Shown in pieces: positions 41,774-51,646 of a stretch of DNA of 64,000 nt. The notes under the pieces were generated by a model. The model ran no database searches, had not been told where the DNA came from, and saw only the letters and a program-made list of their open reading frames with translations. Each line of letters starts with the position of its first letter. The first letter of the stretch is position 1. The stretch spans positions 47,865 through 111,864 of the IMG/VR virus record IMGVR_UViG_3300021960_000030; one strand, 5' to 3'. The translations under genes and the position numbers were made by a program. The stretch is from a virus.

Positions 41774-44368
41774 TTAACACTTATTGATGAGCGGTGATGG
41801 GTTCGGTTGTGATACAATCACGGATTGCGTCTCACCGTTTGCAGCAGAACGGATCTGCTGAATCATAATAGTGCTTCCACCAGGGGCAAGTGCCCTATTC
41901 ATTGCTTGCTGACTGCTGAATGCAGAGAGCGACCCAACTTTATTTATGGACTGATTATCAGTGCCCTTGATTGCACCAACTGCTGCTTGCAGACTACCAA
42001 AGTATTCTTCCTCAGCACCAGCAGACATCGGATCATTGCCGATGATTCCACCTTGGAAGATATCGCTGAGGGAGTATTGAGGTGCCGCTGCAACTTCCGC
42101 TCCATCTACACTCTGGGATTCTGATCCATCCTCTTCCTGGGAAGGAGTATTGCCAGTGCTACCACTGACAGGTTTACCCATAGAGACATAGTTTGAGAAT
42201 ACCTCATGCAATCTCTTAGGTGCGTTCATGTGCAGGTGCCAAGATCCAGGTGTGCCTGTGTCACCCTGACCACCAACAATCGTACCCGCTGGGATTTTAC
42301 TTCCAGGTCTAAAGTTACCAAAAGAATGCAGGTGAGAATACTGCATGAAACCCTGCTTCGTCTTGAGGACCACGGTGTTACCGTAACCACCAGAACGAGA
42401 TGTGGGGTCTTTGTAAACAACCTCAGCAGGCAATGGAGTTGGGATGCCTACGTCTCTACCAGAAGAGGGCCAAGGATCACCACTCTTCGTATTACTGAAG
42501 TTGTAGTCCTTGGGATAACCAATCTTGTGTGAACCGTACGATCTAAACGTCGTAGGTTGACTGTGGTGCTGATAAAGCATTCCATAGGTAATCTCTTTAC
42601 CCATGGGTAACTTCTTAGATGCACCACCAGAACCAGTGGTGTACCAAGCTTGAATCTTACCACCCGATGCCTTCTTGGGCATCTTCTTAGGTTCGGTTCT
42701 CTTTCTTTGGTGAACCTCTCTCTGTACTTGGTTCTTATTGCTAACAGGACCACCTTCGGCACGGAAGAGACCCGTAACAAAGTTCCAGACTGCTCCTGCC
42801 TTCTCTGCTAAGAACTCTGCACCATTGATGATGTTCCTGATGGTGTCAATCACACCGTCAAGAACTGAGTTTAGAATAAACTCGTTGAACTTGTTGATAC
42901 CATCAACAACATCTGCCAGGAGATCAATCCAAGTAAATGTAAAGTCCAGGAAGGGTTTAATAAACTTGAGTTGAATATTCAACACCTTCTTGATGGTGTC
43001 TTTGATAAACCTCTTCGCCTTCTTGAGGAACTCAAATACTTTCTTAAATGCCTTCTCTACCAGAGGTGCAAGTTTCTCACCTGCCCACTTACCCAACCAG
43101 TCACCGATCAAACCACCGATGATGGGAGCAAAGGGACCAAGAAAAGGACCCAGTAGAGCGGTACCAATAACGGCACCAAGCATACCACCTGCTGCAGCAC
43201 CAACACCGCGGCCAACTGCTTCGGTATTTGTCTTGCCTTCTGCGAGTGCATCCTGATAGGCATTCACACCGCTCAGGACTGCCATAGCAGGTCCAGCAAT
43301 CCTGGTCAGACCTTTAGTCAGACCTTTCATTCTACCGAGTTTGCCACTCAGTTTCTTAAGACCATTACTAAGGTTCTTGGCACCTCGATTGATTTTGTTT
43401 GCGGTTGCCCTGACCTTATTAAATGGTCCTCTACCCTTTACGTTCCCTTGGAATCTTCTACGAGCAGCATCACCACCATAGCGGCGAGCATATCTCTGTC
43501 TCGCTGCCTTAGATGAGTTGGCAGTTCTCTGTCTCCTGCTAGGACGTTGGTTGCCTCCTCTTTGTTGATCCTGTTGATCCTCACTTTCACCGTTGAAGAT
43601 GTCCCAGAGTTGCACAAAACGTCTGGTGTCGTTGATCAACTTCCAAGGCATGAACACCCTAGAAGCAACCCAGAGACCACCCAGACCTAAAACCAGTTGA
43701 CCGATTCCCTTGACGCCATCGAACACACGTTCCATGACGCTCTTATTTGGATCAGTGGTGCCAGTCAGTGTGGCAACACCATCCATGAACTTATCAATAC
43801 CGAATGATAAGATCTTATATCCGAACTTACCCCATCCTACAAGAAAGTCCAGTACGGTCTGGACCTTATCGGGGTTCTTTGATACCCAGTCAAGTGCTGC
43901 TAAAGCACCCAACTGAGCGATAAACGGTGCTAGAAGATTACCAATAGACTTAAAGAATCCGAGGATGCCTTTGAGTGCACCCCCCTTTTCCTTTTTGACC
44001 TTCTCCTTCAGTTTGGATTCATCAACGACATTTTCATCGTCAACATCCTTCTCTTGCAGATCTTCTGCTTCTTGATCTTGCTTCTTGTTCTTTAGTTTTT
44101 CATCTACCCGTCTACCTTCCAACCAACGCTTGTGTGATTGTTTGTTCTGGTGACGAATCTTTCTAGTACGGCGTTCTCCCGTACTATCCAACCACTCTTC
44201 CGAAAACTCATGCAGACCGTGGATTTGACCAATGCTCCTGCCGATGCCCGTGAGAGTGGTGCCAAGACGGTTAATCTGTCTAATGGAATCAGTAAAGCCC
44301 ACAGAAAGTCCAGTGCTATCCCTTGCAGGGCGCACTGGTACATATTCTCTGACTTTTATTTTTGCCAT
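41774..44368 (-). CDS. Giant hub or tape-measure protein with an M23 peptidase-like domain, 864 aa
   Basis: Residues 100-560 resemble the gene downstream: ALAALDWVSKNPDKVQTVLD and GIGQLVLGLGGLWVASRVF, and then hydrophobic segments. Around 620-715 lies an M23-type domain: SSGRDVGIPTPLPAEVVY, then GYGNTVVLKTKQGFMQYSHL, and GSWHLHMN with the HxH at 711-713. The first His of the family's HxGxD is Ser here, so zinc binding may be altered. It probably measures tail length and carries a lytic domain. Confidence 0.7.
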   Translation of the reverse strand: MAKIKVREYVPVRPARDSTGLSVGFTDSIRQINRLGTTLTGIGRSIGQIHGLHEFSEEWLDSTGERRTRKIRHQNKQSHKRWLEGRRVDEKLKNKKQDQEAEDLQEKDVDDENVVDESKLKEKVKKEKGGALKGILGFFKSIGNLLAPFIAQLGALAALDWVSKNPDKVQTVLDFLVGWGKFGYKILSFGIDKFMDGVATLTGTTDPNKSVMERVFDGVKGIGQLVLGLGGLWVASRVFMPWKLINDTRRFVQLWDIFNGESEDQQDQQRGGNQRPSRRQRTANSSKAARQRYARRYGGDAARRRFQGNVKGRGPFNKVRATANKINRGAKNLSNGLKKLSGKLGRMKGLTKGLTRIAGPAMAVLSGVNAYQDALAEGKTNTEAVGRGVGAAAGGMLGAVIGTALLGPFLGPFAPIIGGLIGDWLGKWAGEKLAPLVEKAFKKVFEFLKKAKRFIKDTIKKVLNIQLKFIKPFLDFTFTWIDLLADVVDGINKFNEFILNSVLDGVIDTIRNIINGAEFLAEKAGAVWNFVTGLFRAEGGPVSNKNQVQREVHQRKRTEPKKMPKKASGGKIQAWYTTGSGGASKKLPMGKEITYGMLYQHHSQPTTFRSYGSHKIGYPKDYNFSNTKSGDPWPSSGRDVGIPTPLPAEVVYKDPTSRSGGYGNTVVLKTKQGFMQYSHLHSFGNFRPGSKIPAGTIVGGQGDTGTPGSWHLHMNAPKRLHEVFSNYVSMGKPVSGSTGNTPSQEEDGSESQSVDGAEVAAAPQYSLSDIFQGGIIGNDPMSAGAEEEYFGSLQAAVGAIKGTDNQSINKVGSLSAFSSQQAMNRALAPGGSTIMIQQIRSAANGETQSVIVSQPNPSPLINKC

Positions 44369-45297: not shown

Positions 45298-46047
45298 TTA
45301 AATACCATAGTCATTTACCTCTGTTTGCCCGTAGTCTCCGCTGATTCCAATATCGTTAAGAACGCCGAGACTGATACCTGCCTGAGTGAAAAGATCAATA
45401 TAGCGATCAGGCATATTTGCCCAACCAACGTTTTCAAGAACCTGATCGAACCTGTATCTTTCATATGCAAACTCAATATCCATTTTCATGAGTGTGGTGC
45501 TTTCGTTGTTCAGGTTCATCACACTGATGTTAGTCGGGAATGCACCAATCATTTGCCAGGCACCAGTGCAACGATTGAGTCTTTGTTTGATACGGGGATC
45601 TCTATGATCCTTATACACTACGTTACTGCCCAGTTCCCACTTCTGAATAATGATATTCGTGGTGTACTGGTCGTAGAATGCTGTGCGGTTCTCTTGATCG
45701 CCTGCAGCACTATTCATCCACAGTTCAAACACCTGTCTCATCAGCAGGTCTTTTGTGACTAAGAATGAGATAGTAATAGGACTGTTGACCTGACCCGTAG
45801 CGTAGTTACGCTGCATACCAAAGTCTTTGACCTGTGAGGTCGTGATTTGTCTGCTAGGTACGGTTACATCATCAGCAGCAAAGTTCACATACTCGGTCCA
45901 GGTACGAAACTCACTGAACCCAGCGGCACGAACACAAGGGGGCAGACCCACAAACACAGAATATAGGTTGGAACGGGCGGGTTCTGCTCCACCAGTACGA
46001 ATCCAATCTCTAAACTCTGTAAATGAGTTTGGTGCTGAGTATGGCAC
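45298..46047 (-). CDS. 54: Tail tube initiator gp54-like protein
   Basis: GTG 46047 overlaps the TAG of the gene upstream (TAGTG). The 249 residues follow a tail-tube fold: RSNLYSVFVGLPPCVRAAGF near the start, FAADDVTVPSRQITTSQVKD, then NSPITISFLVTKDLLMRQVF and a domain ending with MDIEFAYERYRF. T4 gp54 caps the tube at the baseplate. The position and the fold favour gp54 over gp48, which is at 46950. Confidence 0.65.
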   Translation of the reverse strand: MPYSAPNSFTEFRDWIRTGGAEPARSNLYSVFVGLPPCVRAAGFSEFRTWTEYVNFAADDVTVPSRQITTSQVKDFGMQRNYATGQVNSPITISFLVTKDLLMRQVFELWMNSAAGDQENRTAFYDQYTTNIIIQKWELGSNVVYKDHRDPRIKQRLNRCTGAWQMIGAFPTNISVMNLNNESTTLMKMDIEFAYERYRFDQVLENVGWANMPDRYIDLFTQAGISLGVLNDIGISGDYGQTEVNDYGI

Positions 46048-46520
46048 TATAATCTACTCCAAACGTGAGAACTAGGTATGTCGATTTGCCGACCCATAAC
46101 AGTAGTTGTGAACTGTTCTAGTGGCAACTTGCCAATACTGTCCAGTTCTTCTTTGGGGACTAAATACATAGAACCCGCTGCACTTAAGAAGTATTTATGA
46201 TGGCAGCGGCGAGGATATGACATTCCTCCTGCCTTGATTGACGCTCCTACACTAATCTGTACTGTAGGTCTGAGGTAATGTAGGTTACCACCCTCAAACA
46301 TGTTCTCAGCAAGATTGACATCTGTAATAAGTGTCATTGGAAACTTATCCCAGAACTTTAGTTTTTCTGCTGTCTGTGCGCTGTAGTTGTAGAAAACAAC
46401 GTCGCCAATAGCAGGCAAACGGTCCAAAGGTGTAAGTAGAGAACGGACTTGATCGCGATACCAAGGGCGTGATTTTCTCCTGAATCCTGCTCCATCCATT
46501 ACATCCGAGTAAATGCTCAT
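46047..46520 (-). CDS. Conserved T4-like cyanophage protein, 157 aa
   Basis: The protein contains RDQVRSLLTPLDRLPAIGDV, FYNYSAQTAEKLKFWDKFPM, then GNLHYLRPTVQISVGAS. A similar W/YxDxFP and NLHYL pattern is known to me from hypothetical proteins of T4-like ocean phages beside tail genes. It is small, beta-rich and basic. The gene is locked between gp54-like and gp4 by overlaps. Function is unknown, probably structural or in assembly. Confidence 0.65.
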   Translation of the reverse strand: MSIYSDVMDGAGFRRKSRPWYRDQVRSLLTPLDRLPAIGDVVFYNYSAQTAEKLKFWDKFPMTLITDVNLAENMFEGGNLHYLRPTVQISVGASIKAGGMSYPRRCHHKYFLSAAGSMYLVPKEELDSIGKLPLEQFTTTVMGRQIDIPSSHVWSRL

Positions 46521-46951
46521 ACCTTGAGTTCCTTTTCGGTGAGTATCAGAAAACTCATTTTACGGTCAGCACAATAATCTCTTGCTGCCTTCCACTTCGC
46601 CTCATTGACAGCATATGTTTTGACCTCAGTCAAATATTTTTTGGTCTTCCTTGTCTGCTTCTTGGGGGGAGCAGTCTGCGACTTTGGTTTAACTTCAATA
46701 ATGAACTTCTCAATCCCTCCACCCCTGGTCCTTGCTCGGACATAGAAGTCTGGATAATAGCGATGAACCCTACCGTCAACAGGAGAGATGTAAGGAATAA
46801 CGATTTCTTCACTGCCCCACTCTAAAACGTTATCGTTTTTATCGCACCACACCATGAACTTTCTTTCCCACAAACTGCGATAAATAATGTTTGTAGGATC
46901 CCCCTTATATTTTTGAGTATGTGATGGTCTAAACCTTCCAGAGTAACTCAT
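46517..46951 (-). CDS. 4: Head completion protein gp4 (gp50)
   Basis: ATG 46951 (MSYSGRFRPSHTQKYKGDPT) is chosen as the start. Typical gp4 features follow: NIIYRSLWERKFMVWCDKND, NVLEWGSEEIVIPYISPVDG, YYPDFYVRARTR and EKFIIEVKPKSQT, a PD-ExK-like nuclease core that fits its supposed role in finishing the filled head. The ATG overlaps on the opposite strand with the ATG of gp48 (CATG). It leads a minus-strand run that includes gp26. Confidence 0.8.
   Translation of the reverse strand: MSYSGRFRPSHTQKYKGDPTNIIYRSLWERKFMVWCDKNDNVLEWGSEEIVIPYISPVDGRVHRYYPDFYVRARTRGGGIEKFIIEVKPKSQTAPPKKQTRKTKKYLTEVKTYAVNEAKWKAARDYCADRKMSFLILTEKELKV
46879..46886 (+). promoter_or_regulatory. Late promoter GATAAATA
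   Basis: GATAAATA on the plus strand, 64 bases upstream of the gp48 ATG and inside the coding sequence of gp4 on the other strand. Confidence 0.55.
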
Positions 46952-47927
46952 GGCATTAGTATTTCCGAGAGTAAAACCGCTCGGTACAAGTTCGGTTAGT
47001 AGCAGAAAAGCGATTGGAAACACCGCATCGTTTCCAACTGAGGCAATGGACTACCTGAAAATCGATATCTTCGATTCCAGGAAAACTAGCCCGTATAACT
47101 ATGTAGGCAGCGGTCAGGGAACTGGCAGATCTAAAGGACGATCTAAAGAATCGATCTTCTTGTACCTTCCAGCCAACTTATCCGAACAGTATACCACAAA
47201 GTATAACCAAGTGGGTCTAGGGGCGTTTGGTAAGGCTGGAATGGATGCAATGTCCCAAGGTAACGTCCAAGGTATTGGGCAAACGATCTCTCAGGGGGCA
47301 GAACAAGGAAAATCCCAACTTTCGGGTCAAATGGCGGCGAGTGCCATGAACATCGCGAACATGGGTAATACTAATATCACAGTTAATGATCTTGCTGCTC
47401 TTTCAAAGAGAGCGATTCTCAACCCATACGAAGAAACCACATTCCAAGGGGTTGACTATAGAACTCATTCATTCCAGTTCAAACTGGTCCCCAGAGGTCC
47501 ACAAGACGTTGTAGCAATCACCAAGATTATCCAATCTTTGCGTGTGTCTATGCTGCCTGGCACATCAGGTGGTGGTGATAATGCTGGATCAACAGATGTC
47601 TTCTCTCAGATTGACTCTGGTACAGGTAGAGGAGATCGTTGGTTGACTATTCCCGACTTCTTCCAGTTAAGCATCGTAAGATACAAAGGTGCGAATGAAA
47701 CTCTGGATGACGACATGTCTCCCCCAGAAACGCTCTCGTTCCTGATGCAGTTCCCAACAAAGTGTGTTCTGACCAACATGACAGTGAATATCACTCCAGA
47801 TGGTCACCTGAATACCCTCAAGAATGGGGATAATAAGAACGATACCTATGATTATGGTCCGACCGCATATGAACTGGGTCTTCAGTTCAGCGAAACTGCA
47901 TTCATTACACGAGAAATGTTAAGATGA
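46950..47927 (+). CDS. 48: Baseplate tail tube cap gp48
   Basis: The 325-residue protein has DYLKIDIFDSRKTSPYNY, ESIFLYLPANLSEQY, LAALSKRAILNPYEETTFQG, then RTHSFQFKLVPRGPQ and LQFSETAFITREMLR, the tail tube and cap pattern of T4 gp48. gp48 sits on the hub and starts tube growth with gp54. It is the first gene of the only plus-strand pair; the stop overlaps the next ATG (ATGA). The ATG overlaps the gp4 ATG on the other strand. Confidence 0.8.
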   Translation: MALVFPRVKPLGTSSVSSRKAIGNTASFPTEAMDYLKIDIFDSRKTSPYNYVGSGQGTGRSKGRSKESIFLYLPANLSEQYTTKYNQVGLGAFGKAGMDAMSQGNVQGIGQTISQGAEQGKSQLSGQMAASAMNIANMGNTNITVNDLAALSKRAILNPYEETTFQGVDYRTHSFQFKLVPRGPQDVVAITKIIQSLRVSMLPGTSGGGDNAGSTDVFSQIDSGTGRGDRWLTIPDFFQLSIVRYKGANETLDDDMSPPETLSFLMQFPTKCVLTNMTVNITPDGHLNTLKNGDNKNDTYDYGPTAYELGLQFSETAFITREMLR

Positions 47928-48823
47928 GTACATATTTTTCATACCTTCCTAACGTATACGTTCGCCTTGATAGTTTTTACAAGCAAGGCGTAGATCCGTA
48001 TATCCAAGCAAAGAACATTTTTCGTCGTATTAAGATACGAGACGATATTACTGGTGCAGTTCTTGGTTTCCAGCAGTATTCTATTGGTTCTAACGAAAGA
48101 CCTGATGAAACTGCTAACAAGGCATACGGTGACCCTCAGTTAGATTGGGTTGTTCTTCTTGCCAACAATATCATCAATATCTACAACGAATGGCCTATGC
48201 ATGAAGACGAACTCATGCGTTATGTGGATAGAAAGTACGGTACTGATGCAGGTGGCATTCACCACTACGAAACCCTCGAAATCACCGACTCTAAAGGTAA
48301 CGTTTTGGTGCCTGAGGGTGTAGAGGTTAACTTTAACTACCAGTATACTGACAGTCAGGGTGTTATCAGACCTATTTCTGAATGTGTCAGACCTGTGTCA
48401 AACTATGATCATGAGATTCAGCAGAATGACTACAAACGCAACATCTATCTTCTGAAACCACAATACCTCTCAAACTTCATTGCAGAGTTCACCGAACTGG
48501 TCGAATACCTGCCAAACGAAGAACTCAACGAAGAGACGATTAAGAAGACATTTGACGTTCTTGATGAAAACTATATCAAGAACAGAGACACCTACTCTAC
48601 CGACATTGGTCGTGTTGCTGTTACGAAGACTGTACCTCAGCAAGACTTCGCAGATAGGTCATTTACCAAAAGTGCAGGATCCTCTGCGGTCATCTTTGCG
48701 GTGCAAGAAGCGGCTTCCAACACAGTTAACGCATCAGGCGTTATTGCAGGAACACAGGACTCTTCGACAACTATCTCACAATCGACACAATCGTCCTCTT
48801 CGTCCTCTAGCAGCGGTTATTGA
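47924..48823 (+). CDS. 53: Baseplate wedge protein gp53
   Basis: The 299-residue protein has YFSYLPNVYVRLDSFYKQGV, AKNIFRRIKIRDDITG, then FQQYSIGSNERPDETANKAY, YGDPQLDWVVLLANNIINIY and NEWPMHEDELMRYVDRKYG, all typical for gp53. The C-terminal 60 residues are Ser-, Thr- and Gln-rich and may be disordered. It links wedges and has a LysM-like fold in T4. The gene ends tail to tail with the next minus gene (17-base overlap). Confidence 0.85.
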   Translation: MSTYFSYLPNVYVRLDSFYKQGVDPYIQAKNIFRRIKIRDDITGAVLGFQQYSIGSNERPDETANKAYGDPQLDWVVLLANNIINIYNEWPMHEDELMRYVDRKYGTDAGGIHHYETLEITDSKGNVLVPEGVEVNFNYQYTDSQGVIRPISECVRPVSNYDHEIQQNDYKRNIYLLKPQYLSNFIAEFTELVEYLPNEELNEETIKKTFDVLDENYIKNRDTYSTDIGRVAVTKTVPQQDFADRSFTKSAGSSAVIFAVQEAASNTVNASGVIAGTQDSSTTISQSTQSSSSSSSSGY

Positions 48824-49019
48824 GTTTTGCCTCTATTTCGTTGATATGGGTAAACTCTCCATATGCTCGCTCAGAGCGTTCATGGAGAATATCGCTAATA
48901 TCTTCCAAAACGACCTCAGGGGCAATATAGTCGTCTAGGTACTTGTCAATCGCTTCTTTAAGATAGCGATATCTGTGCCATTCTGGCGAATAGGGTCGAT
49001 ACTGCATAATGTGGGTCAT
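48807..49019 (-). CDS. Conserved small cyanophage protein, 70 aa
   Basis: MTHIMQYRPYSPEWHRYRYL and then KEAIDKYLDDYIAPEVVLED form a helical, charged protein that recurs in cyanophages. ATG 49019 or the internal ATG (residue 5) may be used. Its 3' end overlaps that of gp53 by 17 bases on the opposite strand. No function is known. Confidence 0.65.
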   Translation of the reverse strand: MTHIMQYRPYSPEWHRYRYLKEAIDKYLDDYIAPEVVLEDISDILHERSERAYGEFTHINEIEAKLNNRC

Positions 49020-49038
49020 TCTCTAAGTAGTATATACC

Positions 49039-49266
49039 CTATGGATTCTGTTTGTCAAGTCCTAGGGAAATAAGGTAGTCTGTCCACCACTGTGGGTCTT
49101 TTTGTGATTTCCACCGTGGCACTGGTTTGCCATGAAGCGAATAATACTCGCTAATCGCTTCATCGATAATCTGTGCGATCTCCATATTCCTCTTCCTCTT
49201 CATCAACGTCCTCATATGGGTTTGCCACATAAGGTCCGTGTGGTTTTCTGGATTCTGATTTGACAT
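49039..49266 (-). CDS. Unknown protein, 75 aa
   Basis: ATG 49266 is preceded by GGGAGG at 7 bases, a strong binding site, which chooses it over the longer frame. MSNQNPENHTDLMWQTHMRT starts a helical protein with a later PRWKSQKDPQWWTDYLISLG. Over 107 bases it shares DNA with the 70-residue gene below in another frame. The function is unknown. Confidence 0.6.
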   Translation of the reverse strand: MSNQNPENHTDLMWQTHMRTLMKRKRNMEIAQIIDEAISEYYSLHGKPVPRWKSQKDPQWWTDYLISLGLDKQNP

Positions 49267-49372
49267 ACTTTGCCTCCCCGACGCTAGCAGACAACCATAG
49301 TGCAAGTTTCATTGTAATCCATATCACCGCGATCGGTGTGAAGCAGAGTGCAAGGATTAAGGAACTTTTCAA
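49160..49372 (-). CDS. Small membrane protein with TTG start, 70 aa
   Basis: TTG 49372 shares bases with the TGA of the gene upstream (TTGA) and has GGAGG nine bases before. One membrane segment (SSLILALCFTPIAVIWIT and more) is followed by a soluble tail rich in Glu and ending GDRTDYR. It overlaps the 75-aa gene by 107 bases. Both frames look natural, so I keep both. Confidence 0.55.
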   Translation of the reverse strand: MKSSLILALCFTPIAVIWITMKLALWLSASVGEAKYVKSESRKPHGPYVANPYEDVDEEEEEYGDRTDYR

Positions 49373-49686
49373 TCTCTTTGCCTCCAATCATCTGGTTTGT
49401 CTTGTTTGAACCAATCGATGATATCGTCAGCAGACTGAAATCCTGTTCTATGGTTAGATGGGTCTGGATCACCTAATCCCATCTGATTCATAAAATCGTC
49501 CATGCTGCCTTCTACCATATCTGGGTTAGCAGCACGTCGGCGTGCTCTCTTTAACATTTCACGGGCGCTGGTATTTGCTTTACCAATCTTTTCTGCCCAA
49601 ATCATGTCTGGGAGATCCACCGACTCCCTTAAAGCAATCTTCTGACATATGCCTTCTAAACGAAGGCGATATTGAGTCGAAAGCAT
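49369..49686 (-). CDS. Unknown protein, 105 aa
   Basis: ATG 49686, 22 bases after a late AATAAATA promoter, opens a helical protein with MLSTQYRLRLEGICQKIALR, then MLKRARRRAANPDMVEG and a C-terminal acidic part ending DDWRQRD. It may be an assembly or regulator protein. Its TGA overlaps the TTG of the next gene. Confidence 0.6.
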   Translation of the reverse strand: MLSTQYRLRLEGICQKIALRESVDLPDMIWAEKIGKANTSAREMLKRARRRAANPDMVEGSMDDFMNQMGLGDPDPSNHRTGFQSADDIIDWFKQDKPDDWRQRD

Positions 49687-49707
49687 TTGTACCTCGCGTA
49701 CTATTAG

Positions 49708-49715
49708 TATTTATT
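49708..49715 (-). promoter_or_regulatory. Late promoter AATAAATA
   Basis: AATAAATA on the minus strand, 22 bases upstream of ATG 49686 and a short distance after the terminator at 49732-49765. Confidence 0.6.
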
Positions 49716-49731
49716 GAAAAACCCTAGGGAT

Positions 49732-49765
49732 AAAAAAATACCCCAAGTTTTTTTCGGGGGTATTT
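49732..49765 (-). terminator. Rho-independent terminator
   Basis: AAATACCCC and GGGGTATTT form a 9-pair stem with an A/G-rich loop; on the minus strand a run of T residues follows. It ends the gp32-to-49789 transcript before the late promoter at 49708-49715. Confidence 0.8.
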
Positions 49766-49788
49766 GTAAATCAAAGGTCGTTTTTGGT

Positions 49789-50052
49789 TCAGCAGCTCAC
49801 TCGGACTCTCTCCGTCCACCGACGAACCCACCCTGGTCTGTACCTTCCGCTCCTGCTGTAGTCACTTGGGATGTACTCCTCATGTTGAATAGTTTCGTAG
49901 CAGAAGGTACGACGCGGTGCGTAGTAATGGTGGGGTCGTTCGTAGTGGTGGTGATGCTGATTATCGGTGAAAGGTTCCCAGAACTCTCCCCAAGTTACAG
50001 CACTAGCGGGGGATGCTGTTAGCAGTAGCAGGGGGAGAGCAAGGAGTTTCAT
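49789..50052 (-). CDS. His-rich secreted protein, 87 aa
   Basis: Residues 1-19 form a signal peptide (MKLLALPLLLLTASPASA) with a likely cleavage after ASA. The mature part has NQHHHHYERPHHYYAPRR, a metal-binding-like His and Tyr cluster, and then a beta-rich C-terminus with two Cys (FCYETIQ and the final C). It probably acts in the periplasm during infection. The function is unknown. The gene is the last of the gp32 unit. Confidence 0.65.
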   Translation of the reverse strand: MKLLALPLLLLTASPASAVTWGEFWEPFTDNQHHHHYERPHHYYAPRRTFCYETIQHEEYIPSDYSRSGRYRPGWVRRWTERVRVSC

Positions 50053-50948
50053 CAGAGTTCAGCAGCGAGGTCTTCAAAGTAAGAGAGATCGGGTTCATCC
50101 GACTCTTGACTGAATGATTCTACAGCAGAACCGAACCCACTGGGGGCAGCAGATGTGACAGTTTCGCGAGCGAACAGTTCTTCATCTTGCTCATCCTCAA
50201 CCACAGCACGAGTCTGCTTCTTGTTCAGGACCATGCCAAGACGTGCTTCTAGTTCTTCATAGGACTTGAAGTTGGAGGGATCAACAAAGTCCTTGAGCGA
50301 GTGCTCTTGGTTGTAGATCTCTTCCAGTTCAGCATCCGAGAACCCACCGAGGGTACCAGGAGCACTGAACTCAGACTTATCATAGTTCCAGAACCCAGCA
50401 ACCTTCGTGATCTTGATCTTGAAGTCAGCACCCTTCCAGAAATCGAAGGGATTGATGGGGGTCTCATCTTCAAACTGAGGTTGAGCAGCGGTGACGATCT
50501 TATCGTGGATCTTCTTACCGTACTTGTAGAGGAACACCTTACCCTCGTTCTGAGGGTTCATGGGGTCCTTCACGACGTAGATATTGCTATAGTATGACAG
50601 TTTACGCTTCTGCTTACGAGCGACCTCCTTGTCGGCATCGATGCCAGAGTTCCAGAGTTGACGATTCAGTTCACCGACAGGATCCTTCTGACCGAGAGTG
50701 GTCAGGGAGTTCTCGATGTACCAACCACCAGGACCTTGGAAGGCATGGGACCAGACCTGTGCCCAGGGCAGATCAGTATCCTTCTCGGGCAGGAAACGGA
50801 TCACGGCATAACCGTTACCGCTCTTGTCCATTTCAGGTTTCCAGAAGCGTTCATCCACCTTAGAACCAGTGGTAGACAACTTCTCGATTGCCTTGTTCAG
50901 AGAGGCAAAGGAGGAACCGCTGGACTTTTTGAGGGATGCGAAAGACAT
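50052..50948 (-). CDS. 32: Single-stranded DNA-binding protein gp32
   Basis: The 298-residue protein starts MSFASLKKSSGSSFASLNKA (the LAST-like cooperative motif), then has RFWKPEMDKSGNGYAVIRFL, GPGGWYIENSLTTLG, DKEVARKQKRKLSYYSNIYV and NPFDFWKGADFKIKITKVAG, all gp32 hallmarks. The C-terminal 60 residues are acidic, as in T4. It coats ssDNA in replication and recombination. A GATAAT-like element lies 40 bases upstream. The Cys zinc ligands of T4 gp32 are not seen. Confidence 0.9.
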   Translation of the reverse strand: MSFASLKKSSGSSFASLNKAIEKLSTTGSKVDERFWKPEMDKSGNGYAVIRFLPEKDTDLPWAQVWSHAFQGPGGWYIENSLTTLGQKDPVGELNRQLWNSGIDADKEVARKQKRKLSYYSNIYVVKDPMNPQNEGKVFLYKYGKKIHDKIVTAAQPQFEDETPINPFDFWKGADFKIKITKVAGFWNYDKSEFSAPGTLGGFSDAELEEIYNQEHSLKDFVDPSNFKSYEELEARLGMVLNKKQTRAVVEDEQDEELFARETVTSAAPSGFGSAVESFSQESDEPDLSYFEDLAAEL

Positions 50949-51023: not shown

Positions 51024-51404
51024 TCAACCCTCAGAGGTGTGACCCGACTCAAGGATTTGGGTTTTCCATTCCCTGAGTTTGCTCTCCATCTGATCGAGCA
51101 CCACCGTCAGATCGAGACCACCAGAGTACATCTGAGACATGGTGTCGATACGATCCTTCATCTCAGCCACGCTGCCATCCCGCTGAGATTCCTCAACGTG
51201 GTGCGATGCCAGAGCGAGACGGGCGTAGAACACCTTCTGCTTAGCGATTAACTCTAGTGTTTTATTGATGTGATCCAATCTCTCCTGTGGAGAAAAATCC
51301 TGAAGTTTGTTACTCATCTTCAGGAGATCTTCATAGGTCTTTTGGATGTCACCTATTTCTTCTCGGACTAAATCCGAACTAAAAAACTCATTTGCGTCTG
51401 TCAT
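51024..51404 (-). CDS. DUF1825-family protein
   Basis: The 126-residue protein has FFSSDLVREEIGDIQKTYED and LDHINKTLELIAKQKVFYAR, then MSQMYSGGLDLTVVLDQMES, matching the cyanobacterial DUF1825 family of small helical proteins. Hosts carry it as a single gene, so it may be of host origin. It lies between gp32 and gp33, so it might act in transcription or replication. The function is unknown. Confidence 0.7.
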   Translation of the reverse strand: MTDANEFFSSDLVREEIGDIQKTYEDLLKMSNKLQDFSPQERLDHINKTLELIAKQKVFYARLALASHHVEESQRDGSVAEMKDRIDTMSQMYSGGLDLTVVLDQMESKLREWKTQILESGHTSEG

Positions 51405-51646
51405 AAAGGTAAGACTCCTCTACTCGTACGTTTGATGTAGTTAAGTTGTTGTGCGTTGTATTTGATTTTATCTTTGAGTGGTTTGGAGATCAACTTGCTA
51501 GCGGTTTCAACTTCGATCTCATACTCATCACAAATAGATGTGACTGCTTCGATGTAGTTGACCAAACCGTTAGAGTCTTTCACCACCTTCTCAACGAGAG
51601 CAGAGAACTTTGCCTGGGTCATAAACTTTTCTTCAATCTCCTTCAC
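51401..51646 (-). CDS. 33: Late transcription co-activator gp33
   Basis: The core MTQAKFSALVEKVVKDSNG then LVNYIEAVTSICDEYEIEVE and TASKLISKPLKDKI is the cyanophage gp33 pattern. In T4 gp33 connects RNA polymerase to the sliding clamp and gp55 at TATAAATA promoters. GTG 51646 overlaps the TGA upstream (GTGA); ATG 51622 is an alternative. The stop overlaps the DUF1825 ATG by 4 bases. Confidence 0.75.
   Translation of the reverse strand: MKEIEEKFMTQAKFSALVEKVVKDSNGLVNYIEAVTSICDEYEIEVETASKLISKPLKDKIKYNAQQLNYIKRTSRGVLPL

Follow-up and report, generated by a model that had tools for sequence, protein, structure and literature searches.

Fused start codons and a late-promoter box within gp4 at the divergent gp4/gp48 junction of a T4-like cyanophage

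The DNA analysed here, referred to as the window, is a stretch of 64,000 nt corresponding to positions 47,865-111,864 of IMG/VR virus record IMGVR_UViG_3300021960_000030, which comprises 111,864 bases. The window is DNA of a T4-like cyanophage. Among named phages, Synechococcus phage S-SZBM1 is closest to it by DNA (82.9% over 445 bases, 46511-46955), and this match stops at an overlap of two start codons. The following features surround that overlap:

45298-46047, minus strand: gp19-like tail tube, following the gp2-like gene in its block (PHROG 45, 7.2e-40)
46047-46520, minus strand: gp2-like DNA end protector (PHROG 429, 1.1e-24)
46517-46951, minus strand: gp4, head closure/completion protein, 144 aa (PHROG 218, Pfam TnsA-like N)
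46949-46952: CATG, the fused starts, read from the sequence (gp4 ATG at 46951-46949, minus strand; gp48 ATG at 46950-46952, plus strand)
46950-47927, plus strand: gp48, baseplate tail-tube cap, 325 aa (PHROG 230, Pfam T4_tail_cap)
47924-48823, plus strand: gp53, baseplate wedge (PHROG 232, 2.8e-82; Pfam Phage_gp53)

Profile searches placed gp4 in the PHROG 218 family 'head closure' (3.9e-64, residues 1-144), with a further match to Pfam TnsA-like N (2.5e-23), and gp48 in the PHROG 230 family 'baseplate tail tube cap' (7e-75, residues 3-324), with a match to Pfam T4_tail_cap (3.1e-5). gp4 is the first gene of a leftward late block that runs gp4-gp2-gp19-gp26-gp51, in which the gp2-like gene and gp4 overlap by ATGA at 46517-46520. 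The rightward pair consists of gp48 and, second, gp53, which overlaps gp48 by 4 nt. The minus strand holds 76 of the 97 mechanically picked open reading frames (ORFs) of the window, and gp48 and gp53 are the only plus-strand members among the 18 ORFs typed by profile. Beyond gp51 lies an 864-aa protein (41774-44368, minus strand) with an M23 peptidase domain at residues 647-716. At the other side, gp53 converges with a minus-strand 70-codon ORF (PHROG 1461), their ends overlapping by 17 nt at 48807-48823. A protein of the PHROG 254 family 'late promoter transcriptional regulator', which we take to be gp33, is encoded at 51401-51646; phrog_130 was rejected as a candidate for gp55, control genomes showing it to be another family.

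The original prediction that the ATG codons of gp4 and gp48 overlap by two bases on opposite strands is borne out: positions 46949-46952 read CATG, the two genes share 2 nt of coding sequence (46950-46951) as a divergent overlapping gene pair, and no intergenic DNA is left between them. Relatives were gathered by four gp4-protein scans, each contributing its best 80 matches, which together with the window and two named phages gave 300 sequences, some of them the same contig cut differently; because only the best 80 matches per scan entered, the counts describe this sample and not the whole collection. Among the matches listed, the gene divergent from gp4 was gp48 in 194 sequences, a gp19-like tail tube in 100 and untyped in six. 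Seven of the 300 sequences were dropped, six having no typed divergent ORF and one falling outside the gp4 length limits, and the remaining 293 formed 174 clusters at 95% nucleotide identity, 109 with gp48 and 65 with gp19 as partner. These labels derive from BLAST from seeds, of which some, those taken from L064, L068 and L076, had themselves been assigned by gene order, size and weak similarity. The gp48 clusters are termed close or far according to a limit of 46 nt between the gp4 and gp48 starts, which was set after the distances were known.

Conservation of CATG in relatives, proposed as a check of the prediction, holds in part: among the matches listed, the CATG position can serve as the gp48 start in 38 of the 109 gp48-divergent clusters and not in the rest. 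By itself the motif is cheap, since any gp4 ATG with a C just before it yields it. However, among the 42 clusters of the matches listed that carry CATG at the gp4 start, the ATG of the other strand lies in the gp48 frame and can open it in 38, the exceptions being L011, L148, L204 and L156, and this exceeds chance. In five further clusters among the matches listed the starts abut as CATATG (offset +1). The same two-base overlap has been annotated by others in S-SZBM1, S-WAM1, P-TIM40 and P-RSM6. Fused starts were absent from the other six of the ten named cyanophages inspected (Syn33, S-H38, S-CREM1, S-RIM44, ACG-2014d and ACG-2014f), although, as these ten were chosen from the match lists nearest first, four of ten is no frequency. 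The other clusters and the four named phages rule out the idea that CATG is a quirk of one contig. In S-RIM44 (L307, 1501-1938), gp4 is annotated from 1597 with homology from 1501, and the annotated start looks some 32 codons late.

A plus-strand late promoter had also been predicted within gp4, and a box of the appropriate kind is present:

46879-46886, plus strand: GATAAATA, the late-promoter box of gp48-gp53, lying antisense across gp4 codons 22-25 (I-I-Y-R)
46892-46949, plus strand: predicted gp48 leader of 58 nt, complementary to gp4 codons 1-20

The start of the gp48 message near 46892 is placed by the T4 rule for the exact distance from box to start site. The box stands at offset -72 from the gp4 start and matches the T4-type late octamer (TATAAATA / NATAAATA); gp48-gp53 begin 63 nt downstream of it on the same strand. 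In gp4, codons of the form (xxT)(ATT)(TAT)(A/C..) for Ile-Ile-Tyr-Arg give NATAAATA on the other strand, and the window box starts with G rather than T because its Arg codon is CGC; AGA or AGG, giving T, occupies this codon in 53 of the 65 close clusters among the matches listed. NATAAATA is described as the cyanophage late motif (PMC2984593), and T4 late boxes as preceding the transcription start by roughly one turn of the helix (PMC2988020). The window holds 16 copies of the core ATAAATA, where 6.1 would be expected (100 shuffles, largest 12). Fifteen copies are on the minus strand, eight of which lie 20-29 nt before an ORF start, as expected of late promoters, and the single plus-strand copy is the one at 46879-46886. 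Another late box, CATAAATA, lies inside gp2 (46192-46199, minus strand), 144 nt before the gp19-like tail tube on the same strand.

Among the matches listed, the box within gp4 is present in 56 of 65 close, 12 of 44 far and 5 of 65 gp19-partner clusters (Fisher 4e-10 and 7e-21, values that ignore kinship and, for the 46-nt limit, rest on a post hoc division); its retention in the last two groups means that a nearby gp48 is no strict condition for its presence. It occupies codons 22-25 in 38 of 38 CATG clusters among the matches listed, and 106 of the 109 gp48-divergent clusters listed have a late box either there or between both starts. The position -72 recurs in S-SZBM1, S-WAM1, P-TIM40 and P-RSM6, and also in S-H38, whose partner is annotated as a tail tube. 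Lineage-paired tests on a quick tree, the figures being means over pairings with only three to seven usable pairs, gave 1.3 pairs in the same direction, 0.0 in the other and 2.7 without difference for CATG and box (four pairs); the corresponding values were 2.5, 0.2 and 1.4 for gp48 partner and box (four pairs) and 2.2, 0.9 and 3.8 for close gp48 and box (seven pairs).

A late box pointing in the opposite direction, towards gp4, is embedded in gp48 in 28 of the 38 CATG clusters among the matches listed. Such boxes lie 80-269 nt upstream of gp4, at a distance that varies by lineage, and cover x-I-Y codons in 22 of the 28 and Y-L-Y-L in six; the head-to-head overlap of messages in these 28 clusters is estimated at 127-316 nt (median 175). 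A minus-strand late box at most 300 nt upstream of gp4 was found in 43 of 64 close clusters against 2.0 expected, in 5 of 43 far clusters against 2.6 and in 9 of 65 gp19 clusters against 5.5 (among the matches listed; expectations from dinucleotide shuffles). Within gp48 itself, nucleotides 1-300 hold the reverse box in 27 of 37 CATG clusters, compared with 9.9 expected from synonymous shuffles (largest 17), and nucleotides 301-900 in none of the 37. These reverse-box counts omit loci with less than 300 nt upstream of gp4 (one of 65 close, one of 44 far and one of 38 CATG clusters).

The stretch covered upstream of gp4 in the remaining 10 of 38 CATG clusters, namely the window and L001, L002, L008, L036, L040, L044, L045, L057 and L189, contains no exact gp4-directed late box. 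The place where two relatives carry it can be specified:

47064-47075, minus strand: site over gp48 codons D39-I40-F41-D42, where the gp4-directed box is absent in the window, L001 and L002

At the same place in gp48, L004 and L022 read D-I-Y-D and carry the box CATAAATA on the minus strand, 122 nt before gp4. In the window, the minus strand of 46952-47950 has no match to TATAAATA with one mismatch or fewer, nor is there any exact minus-strand ATAAATA upstream of gp4 before 49708. A scan for sigma-70-type sites on both strands of 46000-50200 returned five against 7.3 expected, so that a minus-strand match at 47482-47455 means nothing alone. It is possible that gp4 is transcribed by read-through from the minus-strand late box at 49708-49715, in which case its message would be antisense to all of gp48-gp53. 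Two terminator-like hairpins (49727-49759, minus strand) lie between gp32 and this late box.

Sister groups reveal a second way of using the gp4 start codon. In all 44 of 44 far clusters among the matches listed (e.g. L085, L086, L088 and Syn33, which is L082), the eight bases CATAAATA stand at the gp4 start, so that the gp48 late box takes its first three bases from the antisense of the start codon; the same octamer is found at the gp4 start in ten close and nine gp19 clusters of the matches listed. The gp48 start of the far group has moved 77-460 nt away. Hence the gp4 start codon is doubly used in two ways, being fused either to the gp48 start or to the gp48 box. The box inside gp4 is still present in 15 of 54 gp48-divergent CATAAATA clusters among the matches listed, and a lineage-paired test within gp48 leaned neither way on CATAAATA and loss of the gp4 box (0.7 same, 0.9 other, 1.4 no difference; three pairs, quick tree). 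In the 65 listed clusters in which gp4 diverges from a gp19-like tail tube (e.g. L064, L068, L073, L076; also L305 and L306), gp48 may lie elsewhere: S-H38 and S-CREM1, as annotated, have gp48 and gp53 after gp4 on the same strand, and L073 and L075-L078 have gp48, by weak similarity, after gp4 on the strand of gp4. The arrangement in ACG-2014f differs from that of S-H38 and S-CREM1. The position of gp48 and gp53 in gp19-partner phages indicates that the orientation of the gp4 block relative to its neighbours has changed within the phage group.

Taken together, these observations mark the junction as the divergence point of two late structural blocks, at which the late promoter of gp48-gp53 would be embedded in gp4 codons. 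The prediction that the divergent messages are antisense over their 5' ends follows from the sequence geometry: any gp4 mRNA has to include codons 1-20 of its gene, and the start of the gp48 message is expected near 46892. Transcription of gp48 from there would produce a leader of ~58 nt antisense to gp4 codons 1-20, and any gp4 message would be antisense in turn to the gp48 leader and the gp48 start, giving an expected 5' antisense overlap at the window junction of ~60 nt or more in which the two messages could form a duplex. Where gp48 carries the gp4-directed box, polymerases would face each other and the messages would overlap head to head. Historically, a promoter-bearing spacer of the T4 type was most likely lost, each promoter ending in the opposite gene, and the antisense overlap would then be mainly a tolerated by-product. 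We consider this anatomical reading, with late promoters in opposite genes and antisense 5' ends expected, to be quite probable. The absence of a visible gp4-directed box from the window lineage and the separated starts of the far group argue for a by-product; the 27 of 37 CATG clusters in which boxes face each other speak against it.

It is tempting to speculate that the overlap is instead a regulatory device, in which pairing of the messages at their start codons and collision of polymerases keep the head-completion/DNA-end block and the baseplate block low and balanced late in infection. The start-codon fusion is kept across 38 clusters among the matches listed, and the excess of gp4-directed boxes in the first 300 nt of gp48 would fit such a device; the variable distance of these boxes and their two codon contexts look as if facing counted more than exact place. 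Antisense RNA is, moreover, known in a cyanophage, namely CfrI of S-PM2 (PMC2984593). Against this, no gp4-directed box can be recognised in the lineage of the window, so that even there a symmetric device has not been conserved, and in the far group the coding starts no longer overlap. T4 has facing boxes, yet by the T4 spacing rule its messages would overlap by at most a few nucleotides. We regard a regulatory device as unlikely. Slightly more doubtful still is its most specific form, a reciprocal fused-start sense/antisense switch of T4-like cyanophages that, with promoters in each other's code, would balance head-completion and baseplate messages. If true, each message would mask the start of the other, and virion parts required in small numbers would be supplied at low and balanced levels.

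A different challenge concerns the box rather than the overlap, for it could be a mere by-product of conserved Ile-Ile-Tyr-Arg codons, with gp48 transcribed from elsewhere. The residues I-[IT]-Y-R are also present in T4 gp4, and TATTTAT can arise from Ile-Tyr codons by chance. However, when synonymous codons were shuffled in 37 CATG clusters, a box in gp4 nt 1-100 was expected in 9.5 (largest 19 in 200 runs) and observed in all 37. As all gp4 codons share one tree, a control within the gene is better than the comparison of clusters. In the 65 close clusters of the matches listed, I22 is ATT in 55 of 61, I23 is ATT in 60 of 60 and Y24 is TAT in 64 of 65, these codons having been taken from the window and chosen after seeing the data. 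The other codons of the same genes drift, with TAT at 375 of 574 other Tyr codons and a third base T at 469 of 1146 other Ile/Val codons. Single biased columns occur elsewhere in gp4 (K88 AAA in 63 of 65, C127 TGT in 61 of 65), and no second run of three was seen among the columns listed. In the gp19 group among the matches listed, Y24 is TAT in 38 of 61, and gp4 with this other divergent partner mostly has no box. The wobble bases that form the box are nearly invariant amid this drift; hence the late box itself is under sequence constraint and looks selected as DNA. A chance or coding-only origin is rejected on the cluster distribution, the wobble constraint and the synonymous shuffles, and we judge such a by-product, with gp48 transcribed from elsewhere, to be very improbable.

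The translation signals at the junction are modest. The ribosome-binding region of each gene lies inside the other, as had been claimed, in that the 20 nt 5' of each start fall there. The best anti-Shine-Dalgarno duplex in the window reaches -3.5 kcal/mol for gp4 and -2.4 kcal/mol for gp48. Among the 38 CATG clusters (window included), no gp48 leader reaches -4 kcal/mol with the 16S tail, and nine gp4 leaders do so, compared with four of 38 shuffled gp4 leaders. Shine-Dalgarno pairing is just as weak at several further genes in the window, so this weakness is not special to gp4 and gp48; for gp48, to speak of a 'ribosome binding site' may go too far. That one start codon has been misassigned, with gp4 beginning at GTG 47023, to which its frame stays open upstream, or gp48 farther downstream, where some relatives have an in-frame TTG or ATG a few codons inside, would suit the lack of a strong Shine-Dalgarno at either ATG but is the least credible alternative, given that gp4 homology and the PHROG profile start at ATG 46951, that, of the 80 best relatives, 73 align with gp4 from residue 1 and the other seven from residue 2, that the nearest gp4 start is ATG in 296 of 300 sequences among the matches listed, that gp48 of the close relatives L001, L002, L004 and L022 aligns from residue 1, and that others annotated the identical start pair in four named phages.

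In the open-licence literature we found no title on the gp4/gp48 junction and no expression data for it. Doron et al. are said to have mapped the transcripts of Syn9 in 2016. The available excerpts of PMC9146016 and PMC9964418 hold nothing on the junction, and that of PMC3014915 bears on the topic through a reference title on antisense transcription of T4 gene 32. In one genomic survey, cyanophage late promoters were accepted only if intergenic or overlapping the upstream gene by at most 10 bp (PMC3037559), a rule by which a box embedded in gp4 would be missed. Divergent overlapping genes are described as strongly under-represented in prokaryotes, probably owing to the room that control signals upstream require (PMC2174442); Table 2 of that paper gives 331 divergent among 14,958 overlaps, by our own summation. 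The phage group studied here appears to answer the lack of room by encoding a late promoter within the opposite gene's codons, and the CATAAATA sister group by making the start codon part of the promoter box. The junction offers a conserved case in which to ask if antisense messages that meet head to head have any importance for a lytic phage.

The closest known arrangement is that of T4 itself (NC_000866), where gene 4 and gene 53 are separated by a 47-bp gap with two face-to-face TATAAATA boxes. As in the window, the gp4 start is the point at which a block of gp2 and gp4 runs away from a baseplate gene; in T4, however, the partner is gp53 across a gap and the messages would scarcely overlap, whereas the partner in the window is gp48, with no gap, fused starts and a box inside gp4. 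S-SZBM1, S-WAM1, P-TIM40 and P-RSM6 share with the window the two-base start overlap and the box at -72 inside gp4, and differ from it in possessing a reverse late box inside gp48. The CATAAATA group, such as Prochlorococcus phage Syn33, has the same gp4/gp48 divergence and a doubly used gp4 start codon, but one fused to the gp48 late box, with the gp48 start farther off. Among cellular systems, overlapping 5'-UTRs and excludon classes are described in Listeria (PMC4179725), in which divergent messages are likewise antisense to each other's 5' ends; those cases involve long antisense RNAs over neighbouring genes and opposite expression, whereas here the coding starts themselves overlap and the arrangement is known from sequence alone. 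Finally, the divergent overlapping genes of prokaryotes (PMC2174442) have the same 5'-5' coding overlap; they are rare in cells, yet the gp4/gp48 overlap is found repeatedly in a phage group, accompanied by an embedded promoter box.
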